A stretch of DNA of 64,000 nt from Acidovorax sp. A1169 (lineage in GTDB: Bacteria > Pseudomonadota > Gammaproteobacteria > Burkholderiales > Burkholderiaceae_C), in NCBI RefSeq assembly GCF_030704685.1, contig NZ_JAUZDX010000006.1, positions 186,001-250,000 on the forward strand, given 5' to 3'. The notes under the pieces were generated by a model. That model saw nothing but the letters and a program-made list of their open reading frames with translations. It was not told the DNA's origin and made no database searches. The position numbers and the translations under genes are program-made. The first letter of the stretch is position 1. The number at the start of each line of letters is the position of its first letter. Below, piece after piece: positions 49,343 to 50,708 of this stretch.

Positions 49343-49356
49343 TTGATGCGCATCAA
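49343..49356. promoter_or_regulatory. FNR/ANR-type box TTGATGCGCATCAA
   Basis: Perfect match to TTGAT-N4-ATCAA. Class II activation would put the transcript start near 49391, upstream of the repeat element and 192 bp before uspA. Confidence 0.7.
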
Positions 49357-49434
49357 GATGCGATGTATGGTGTGGGTTCACACTGTCCTTCATCGCATCG
49401 CAGGCGGCACCCGGGACCGGGGGATTGGTGGTTC

Positions 49435-49539
49435 ATACGGATTTGCATTCAATCGTATAACTAGGCGGTAAGCCGCAGACAGTGCTGTAGCACGGCAAGG
49501 CGAACCAACGAAGTTATACGGTTGAAGGAAAATCCGTAT
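49435..49539. repeat. Structured palindromic repeat, copy 1
   Basis: 28-bp imperfect inverted arms (49435-49462 and 49512-49539, starting ATACGGATTT and ending AATCCGTAT) around a core CTAGGCG...CGCAGACA, hairpin GTGCT/AGCAC, CGGCAAG, AACGA. The core recurs in copy 2 at 50092-50201 while the arms do not. Confidence 0.8.
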
Positions 49540-49582
49540 CAGGGCCTCGCCGAAGGTGCATTCAACACAAGGAGAAGACGCC

Positions 49583-50020
49583 ATGTTCAAGCACATTCTG
49601 GTTCCCATCGATGGCTCCGACATCGCCACGCTGGCGGTGTCCAAGGCGGCAGAGCTGGCCAAGACCTTTGGCAGCGCCGTGACCGCCCTGTACGTGGTGG
49701 ACCCGTATCCGTTCACCGGCGTCGGTGCCGATTTCGCCTATGGCCAGGCCCAGTACCTGAGCGCTGCCACGGCCGAGGCGAATACGGCACTGGACGCTGC
49801 TCGCACGGCCCTCACGGCGGCGGGCGTGCAGGTGACCACGGTGGTGGGCGAGGGCCATACCGTGCACGACGGCATCGTGAGCGCCGTGCTGAGCACGGGC
49901 GCCGACCTCATCGTCATGGGCTCGCACGGCCGCCGCGGGCTTGAAAAACTGGTGCTGGGCAGCGTCACCCAGCGCGTGCTGGGCGCGGTGCATGTGCCGG
50001 TGCTGGTCGTGAGGACTTGA
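49583..50020 (+). CDS. Universal stress protein UspA family
   Basis: 145 residues, single Usp domain: MFKHILVPIDGSDIATLAVS at the start and ATP-binding GSHGRRGLEKLVLGSVTQRV near residue 113. Cytoplasmic stress or anaerobic-survival protein. An AAGGAG site lies 9-14 bases before the ATG. An FNR-type box upstream and repeat elements on both sides suggest oxygen control and possible mRNA structuring. Confidence 0.93.
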   Translation: MFKHILVPIDGSDIATLAVSKAAELAKTFGSAVTALYVVDPYPFTGVGADFAYGQAQYLSAATAEANTALDAARTALTAAGVQVTTVVGEGHTVHDGIVSAVLSTGADLIVMGSHGRRGLEKLVLGSVTQRVLGAVHVPVLVVRT

Positions 50021-50046
50021 TCGCGCACCCTTTTAGCTTTTGAATG

Positions 50047-50076
50047 AAAAATGGCTCCCGAGGGAGCCATTTTCTT
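50047..50076. terminator. Bidirectional terminator after uspA
   Basis: AAATGGCTCC/GGAGCCATTTT with a CGAG loop. A very similar hairpin follows intact tctC at 54368-54398, so it may originally have belonged to the tctC copy. Confidence 0.85.
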
Positions 50077-50091
50077 TGGTGAAATGCTTCG

Positions 50092-50201
50092 GGAGTCGCT
50101 ACAAGCTCAGCGCAGCGGTCCTGGCTAGGCGTTTCGTCGCAGACAGTACTGAAAGTACGGCAAGACGGAACAACGACGCCAGGAGAGCTTTTAGCGGCTC
50201 C
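50092..50201. repeat. Structured palindromic repeat, copy 2
   Basis: Outer arms 50092-50108 and 50185-50201 (15 of 17 complementary), inner arms TCCTGGC/GCCAGGA, core CTAGGCG...CGCAGACA, hairpin GTACT/AGTAC, CGGCAAG, AACGA. It ends 7 bp before the stop of the decayed tctC copy. Confidence 0.8.
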
Positions 50202-50208
50202 TATCCCA

Positions 50209-50650
50209 TCACTCGATTTTGGTGCCGGAGGCTTCCACTATGCCCTTCCATTTGGCGTAATCGTTTTTCATCAAGGTACCGAACTGCGCAGCCGACGTGG
50301 CTTCGGGCTCGGCGCCCTGGGCCTGGATGGCGGCCTTCATGTCGGCGGTGGCCAGCAGCTTGTTGATCTCGGCGTTGAGTGCCGCGACCACGCTGGCGGG
50401 GGTGCCTGCGGGTGCGAACACGCCGTACCAGGTGCTCACGTCAAAGTCCTTGAAACCCGATTCGGCCACGGCGATCACGTCGGCCATGGTCTTGTACTTG
50501 GAGTTGGCGCTGGTGGCGATGACCACGGGCGTGTAGGCCACGTGGGCCACGGCGGTCAGGTCCTTGGTTGGGTCCCAGGGCAGCTTCTTGTACAGCCAGG
50601 GGCCGATGACCACGCTGTCCTTCTGGCCCATCACGATGGCCAGCCCTTCA
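50209..50650 (-). pseudogene. Decayed duplicate of the tctC-type binding protein gene
   Basis: The C-terminal part is nearly identical to the protein at 54416-55399 (both contain GPWLYK, then LPWDPTKDLTAVAHVAYTPV, and MKAAIQAQGAEPEA). The N-terminal about 90 residues including the signal peptide are missing. About 93 codons are deleted in frame between ADVIA and VAESGF, removing much of the ligand-binding core. It cannot encode a working exported binding protein. Confidence 0.85.
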
Positions 50651-50679
50651 CGCCGTAGGCCGGCACCCTGTCTCCAGGC

Positions 50680-50708
50680 AGCCCCTTGCCGGGCCATGGC
50701 AAGGGGCT
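50680..50708. repeat. Perfect 11-bp inverted repeat, seven-base loop
   Basis: AGCCCCTTGCC (50680-50690) and GGCAAGGGGCT (50698-50708). No T-run on either side. It lies near the 5' end of the tctC remnant and may mark a rearrangement border. Confidence 0.5.

Follow-up and report, generated by a model that had tools for sequence, protein, structure and literature searches.

Probable miniature transposable elements with a Correia-like core flank uspA in an Acidovorax genome

Introduction

The Correia elements (CREE) of Neisseria are small elements with inverted-repeat arms that hold no gene and duplicate the dinucleotide TA at their target. Their 26-bp ends read TATAG[CT]GGATTAA.., their core runs in the order AGGCG, CGCAGACAGT, hairpin, ACGGCAAGGCG and CAACG, and a long form carries a 50-bp insert. 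The available part of PMC2649163 gives a size of 104-108 bp for the short form, describes cleavage of CREE transcripts by RNase III, with a reported case of a Correia element located between the promoter and mtrCDE, and states, as of 2009, that Correia repeats were found only in Neisseria and that their mobiliser was undetermined. Among other small repeats, the Beta-proteobacterial repeat element (BRE) measures about 90 bp, is usually intergenic and occurs in Bordetella, Polaromonas, Delftia, Rhodoferax and Acidovorax (PMC3110155, partial text). The enterobacterial elements YPAL/RU-2 and ERIC are small hairpin elements as well, some of them lying at gene 3' ends and affecting transcript levels (PMC2229807 and PMC10969869, partial texts); compared by description, they differ from the elements reported here in their hosts and in their target duplications.

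Here, we describe two elements on either side of uspA in Acidovorax sp. A1169, whose core has the same order of motifs as that of the CREE. They share with the CREE the inverted-repeat arms, the target duplication and the lack of a gene, and their size (103 and about 112 bp) is close to that of the short CREE. In contrast to the CREE, their families have unrelated ends and a 3-bp target duplication, TNA, no copy with a 50-bp insert was seen, and the host genera differ. It is unusual that the Neisseria Correia core is common to families with other ends, present in many genera and strongly biased in orientation at the ends of genes. No link of Correia elements to other genera, no description of the core letters and no stop-codon MITEs were found in the literature searched, a weak negative since the search covered mostly papers outside subscription journals.

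Results and discussion

Two related elements lie on either side of uspA

The window, meaning the whole stretch of 64,000 nucleotides that was analysed, comprises positions 186001-250000 of one contig of a draft assembly in 82 contigs. For scoring, a covariance model of the core, R1, was built from 22 of 38 distinct cores, all of this genome. The features around uspA are as follows (window positions).

49343..49356, + strand: box TTGATGCGCATCAA upstream of uspA, which we take to be FNR-like from its motif
49433..49435, no strand: target duplication TCA, left of copy 1 (sequence reading)
49436..49538, + strand: copy 1, a probable family-1 MITE of 103 bp with left arm, core and right arm (repeat search, relatives' gaps)
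49459..49515 (contig 235459-235515), + strand: core of copy 1, full-length R1 match of 79.1 bits, the core being one of the 22 used to build R1
49482..49493, + strand: apical hairpin of copy 1, GTGC/GCAC
49539..49541, no strand: target duplication TCA, right of copy 1 (sequence reading)
49583..50020, + strand: uspA, universal stress protein, ATG at 49583 (Pfam PF00582, E 5e-37)
50048..50073, + strand: terminator-like hairpin between uspA and copy 2 (inverted repeat)
50092..50201, + strand: copy 2, a probable family-2 MITE with diverged arms of the GAGCGG...CCGCTC type
50123..50180 (contig 236123-236180), + strand: core of copy 2, full-length R1 match of 77.3 bits, this core also being among the 22
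50209..50697, - strand: 3' part of a TctC-type receptor gene (Pfam PF03401, E 2e-21)

The original prediction had placed two copies of a structured repeat around uspA, with a common core and with arms that differ between the copies and yet pair within each of them. Both copies were found at these places, copy 1 being trimmed to 49436-49538. The common core appears as a direct repeat (49461-49487 and 50125-50151, 81% identity), and the arms, unrelated between the two copies, pair within each; those of copy 1 form an 89% inverted repeat. As had also been claimed, copy 1 is located between the FNR-like box and the ATG of uspA at 49583, in core orientation relative to this gene. An identical or near-identical box was present in all six upstream regions of uspA that were inspected among 19 relatives, and hairpins resembling the terminator-like one behind uspA were seen in several relatives. 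A uspA mRNA from an FNR-driven promoter would carry the long stem-loop of copy 1 in its leader, where RNase III could cut it as published for Correia elements; by analogy with the Correia element in front of mtrCDE, processing of copy 1 would be expected.

The TctC-type gene to the right of copy 2 reads toward this element and ends, with its stop codon, 7 bases beyond the right edge of copy 2. The best PF03401 stretch in this gene corresponds to profile positions 188-273 of 274. Compared to the relative G005, about 260 bases are apparently missing (window positions 50489 and 50469 adjoin, where the matches in L276 stop at 1199 and restart at 940), and, judged from the alignment, the gene may be broken.

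Both elements belong to mobile families

With copy 1 as query, 35 matches were obtained in the own genome, itself and fragments counted (E<=0.001); copy 2 gave 26, itself counted (E<=1), the weakest of which are fragments or chance matches. Copy 1 had no match in plasmids. Elements of family 1 start with TACGGATTTGC and finish with GCAAATCCGTA, those of family 2 start with GAGCGGCTAACAAAAC and finish with GTTTTGTTAGCCGCTC, with a short end form GAGCGGCTAAC.., and the two families carry unrelated inverted-repeat arms around the common core of about 57 nt. Both show the traits of MITEs, i.e. terminal inverted repeats, small size and many copies that lack a transposase gene. Additional families with lower core scores are present in the own genome: one is flanked by CTAG (39 bits), and another, the third family below, has ends GAACCTGTTCAAG.. 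and a weak core match (27.8-29.9 bits).

The flanks of the elements point to target duplications of three bases. Among 26 family-1 copies with both ends present, 17 have equal TNA triplets, and wherever TNA stands on both sides the middle base agrees (17/17, shuffle mean 12.1, p 0.0014). Of the 12 family-2 copies with both ends, 6 are flanked by equal TNA triplets, with agreement in 6/6 (mean 2.3, p 0.017). These flanks repeat in direct rather than inverted orientation (TCA...TCA), and are therefore target duplications that lie outside the palindrome; none was seen in the flanks of copy 2. Outside the own genome, equal TNA flanks were found in 14/21 copies of a Polaromonas-type family, 8/19 of a Variovorax-type family and 7/35 of family 2, and in a minority (17/57) of the placements in congeners. 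A CTNAG context surrounds 19 of the 59 copies with a TNA duplication, compared to 68 of the 1473 TNA triplets in the window. The family ends sit at TNA, in many cases inside CTNAG, and these three bases are duplicated. The arms probably pair since one transposase must recognise both ends.

These properties raise the question of whether the elements are the published BRE under another description. The BRE are of similar size, mostly intergenic and present in overlapping genera including Acidovorax and Polaromonas; against this, they are shorter, with 75-91 bp in Bordetella, sometimes occur in tandem arrays, and number 1 and 4 copies in two Acidovorax genomes (all from the accessible part of PMC3110155, and a comparison of descriptions rather than of sequences). 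We regard this identity as unlikely, albeit with a realistic chance of being correct.

Thirty-six relatives were searched for the corresponding locus, and in 19 of them uspA was obtained together with the gene upstream of it. As judged by a short core pattern, copy 1 is missing at uspA in 19/19. In G005, the gap in front of uspA measures 10 bases versus 116 in the own genome, the difference of 106 being the 103-bp element plus 3. The slot of copy 2, between uspA and the next gene, showed no core pattern in 18 of the 19 relatives; in the other, one short hit was found in a gap of 993 nt. The mobile palindromic family proposed as one of two readings in the original prediction is thereby borne out: the copies are numerous, their ends are inverted repeats, their targets are duplicated, and relatives have empty sites. 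In L283 (G014), the region upstream of uspA holds an element that is larger and of another kind, with a weakly related core (28.4 bits); as this is another species, the region has been hit more than once.

The other reading, a cis-regulatory leader RNA of uspA such as a riboswitch or thermosensor with a second copy downstream, has in its favour that the elements are structured and covarying and that copy 1 lies between the FNR-like box and uspA. The absence of copy 1 in the 19 relatives speaks against a long-established role at uspA, dozens of copies occur elsewhere, many at the 3' ends of unrelated genes, and a scan of the window with Rfam at the gathering score gave only a tRNA and matched neither copy. 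Below this threshold (E<=5), six matches lie near the copies, one of them in copy 2 (Acido-Lenti-1, 17 nt, 13.9 bits, E 2.8). A leader RNA is therefore an improbable explanation, and an ancestral leader role at uspA is largely refuted.

The core is a covarying structure shared with Correia elements

Both copies fold better than shuffled sequences on either strand, with z-scores of -7.7 (copy 1) and -5.4 (copy 2) for the + strand and -7.8 and -3.2 for the - strand, and 0/200 shuffles were as good in each case. The core consists of an inner stem and an apical hairpin with conserved internal loops between them. In the 22 own-genome cores, standard pairs make up 89.5% of the pair cells, and changes on both sides affect 55 cells compared to 23 in shuffled alignments, so the compensatory pairing that had been proposed from two copies is present in the additional ones. 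The exchange of GTGC/GCAC for GTAC/GTAC in the apical hairpin, from which this proposal had started, recurs at column pair 26/34, where 14 of these cores have GC and 8 have AU. An alignment of 39 cores, taken from 69 distinct ones of many genera and including one Neisseria CREE, gave a consistent picture: 90.2% of the cells are paired, 94 cells carry two-sided changes versus 30 after shuffling, and the covariation score is 0.497 versus 0.151 in shuffles, none of 500 shuffles being as high and slid structures reaching at most 0.086. The pair matching 26/34 is AU in 23 and GC in 16 of the 39. The invariant letters of the pattern-found cores (28 columns) are uninformative, since the search pattern had fixed nearly all of them, including two pairs of the apical hairpin, while the varying stem columns of this alignment are free of the pattern.

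The original prediction suggested a search of this and related genomes with a covariance model and named a lack of further copies as a refutation; R1 gave 57 core matches in the own genome (E<=0.01), all but three of them at E<=1e-4, and this refutation failed. Among 60 genomes (E<=1e-4), it matched in 34 of 35 other congeners and in 3 of 24 genomes from elsewhere in the order. In larger samples, to which stricter filters were applied so that weak matches were lost, R1 (E<=1e-5) matched in 90/399 genomes and 48/159 genera of the order, the own genome included, and in 6/369 genomes of the class, of which four belong to other orders. The core pattern occurred in at least 114 stretches of named genomes. 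Hosts among the matches listed (80 stretches) include Acidovorax, Variovorax, Polaromonas, Rhodoferax, Neisseria, Aquitalea, Chromobacterium and Thiobacillus, as well as Herbaspirillum, Cardiobacterium, Pseudomonas delhiensis and others. The arms of these pattern-found elements vary by group.

The CREE themselves were sampled with a lengthened pattern derived from PMC2649163, which gave 16 stretches from IMG/VR, and 11 of these were scored with R1. A short CREE of 106 bp in L263 reached 46.9 bits, with an E of 1.6e-9 in 234 kb. The nine long forms, each with the insertion, scored 17.5-22.3 bits (E 0.005-0.1), and a 69-bp form in L261 gave no R1 match.

The unrelated arms, with their 27 clusters, and the different target duplications (TNA and CTAG here, TA in the literature) would fit with separate MITE families that converged on similar loops. 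Two results argue against this: R1, built from a single genome and used without a letter pattern, detects the core in those 48/159 genera (E<=1e-5), and families with other arms score 45.5-79.1 bits, albeit at loci picked by the pattern. We thus consider convergence highly unlikely. As the core is that of the Neisseria Correia elements, both families are to be seen as Correia-type elements with other ends, and copies 1 and 2 are, with high probability, non-autonomous MITEs of two such families.

Ends of one related family belong to an insertion sequence

The IS5 family has 3-bp TNA targets. MITEs of this family resemble the elements described here in their 3-bp TNA duplications, and one weakly related core family has the ends of a PF01609 insertion sequence. 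This insertion sequence of 876 bp, found in the congener G022, encodes a PF01609 transposase in two reading frames, and we take it to be IS5-type. Its ends GAACCTGTTCAA.. are the same as the ends GAACCTGTTCAAG.. of the third core-bearing family, and TTA stands on both sides in 2/3 copies. No core was detected within it by R1 (E<=1), the sole hit at the locus (14.3 bits) lying outside the insertion sequence. In this weakly related family, the ends thus belong to an IS5-type insertion sequence and the core does not, and ends held in common with an insertion sequence devoid of the core point to mobilisation in trans. The families do not resemble simple deletion derivatives, since this insertion sequence is devoid of the core and the core is common across differing ends. 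We infer that the families keep the core and differ in the IS5-type insertion sequence whose ends they use; matching ends were obtained for the one weakly related family only.

Insertion sequences with the ends of families 1 or 2 were not found in the own genome (end patterns of both), nor among 30 of 41 PF01609 matches from 6 genomes, and visual inspection of position lists from 8 congeners revealed none with family-2 ends. The remnant of a transposase gene at G000:C6:165226 was considered as a source of family 1 and rejected, as it holds an inserted family-1 copy, with half a copy beside it. This locus (L314, G000:C6:165080-165880) represents nested insertions, with one family-1 copy inside a decayed PF01609 gene and the half copy alongside.

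Repeats of the REP/BIME type, which a RAYT tyrosine transposase mobilises, are likewise palindromic, extragenic and often located behind genes (PMC3733652, partial text). REP palindromes have a GTAG or CGTC tag and measure 20-40 bp, versus 102-112 bp in most placed copies here, and, together with the TNA duplications and the PF01609 partner of one related family, this length makes them a scarcely credible explanation.

The elements are enriched at gene 3' ends in one orientation

Every TNA triplet is TAA or TGA on one strand, so that insertion at the stop codon of a gene would presumably be harmless and would leave a long hairpin just behind the gene. In 27/44 copies of the own genome, an open frame of 100 codons or more has the triplet adjoining the element as its stop, compared to 9.5-20% of non-coding TNA in the controls. 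Thirty-one stop-abutting frames were listed and 30 scanned, of which 28 matched a Pfam family at E<=1e-5, one of them slightly below the Pfam cut-off; FtsZ, citrate synthase, IspD and lumazine synthase are among the abutting genes. Sixty further stretches from congeners yielded 57 placements in 56 stretches, with 4 unplaced, and in 46/57 the stop codon starts 1-4 bases before the edge of the element (41 on the right, 7 on the left, two on both sides); one placement in this set, L385 (+), is doubtful, and the set has a few places in common with the next one. For three families outside the own genome, stop placement was found in 44/75, 40 on the right and 4 on the left.

Since the frame at L010 looked antisense and a Pfam scan of it gave no match, a codon-position filter was added; for this one locus, the stop could not be shown to recur in relatives. 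With strict filtering of coding frames, 46 of the 92 unique copies that represent families 1 and 2 are at a stop, compared to 24% of non-coding TNA (p 1e-7), 40 of them on the right and 6 on the left (p 3e-7). No preference for the exact stop was found relative to TNA within 60 nt of gene ends (46/78 versus 58%, p 0.49), and a looser filter gave 66/105 versus 64% expected near gene ends, with an orientation of 56:10. Targeting of the exact stop codon was thus abandoned as an explanation. The enrichment at gene 3' ends and the orientation bias stand, the orientation being the robust part; the counts of 40:6, 41:7, 40:4 and 56:10 rest partly on the same copies. As near-palindromic ends and a near-palindromic target should give no orientation bias, the bias most likely reflects selection acting on some strand-specific effect.

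The arms were examined for strand asymmetry. On the core strand of 144 copies, their mismatches comprise 165 G.U, 36 A.C and 293 of other kinds. Arranged by arm cluster (146 copies), G.U is more frequent in 21/27 clusters and A.C in 1, with 5 ties. Substitutions within families showed the asymmetry in family 1, not in family 2 or in the Polaromonas-type family, and gave no sign of a general bias of C>T over G>A mutation as its cause. Mismatches that fit neither strand outnumber G.U and A.C, so the pattern does not follow a simple rule of kept pairing. The wobble-tolerant strand is the core strand and the abutting genes are transcribed into the opposite strand, two facts that are in tension.

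Taken together, the orientation bias and the excess of G.U over A.C suggest that the transcribed element may act in a strand-specific manner. We tentatively propose, as a possibility that we hold well short of probable, that the Correia core constitutes an RNA module, transmissible and strand-specific, which has moved between MITEs with the ends of different IS5-type transposons across beta- and some gamma-proteobacteria, is kept as the ends change, and is held at gene 3' ends in one orientation as its transcript acts on neighbouring mRNAs. If this proposal were true, the Correia elements of Neisseria would be one branch of a superfamily. A superfamily with a Correia core and other ends would make the function of the core testable by comparison across genera, IS5-type transposases would become candidate mobilisers of Correia-type elements, and the orientation bias at gene ends would offer a concrete prediction on transcripts for many bacteria.

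Insertions within the elements

Some elements are themselves interrupted. In L316 (G034:C1:195500-197000), a family-2 element appears to be split by an insert with inverted ends of its own, the outer ends spanning 278 bp. In L018, a family-1 core is interrupted at its CTAG by a CTAG-type element (core 34.4 bits) that has CTAG on either side, and in L021 the CTAG of a family-1 core holds a MITE-like insert, again with CTAG on both sides and with no R1 core in the insert. The inserts in L018 and L021 therefore identify the core itself as an insertion target.
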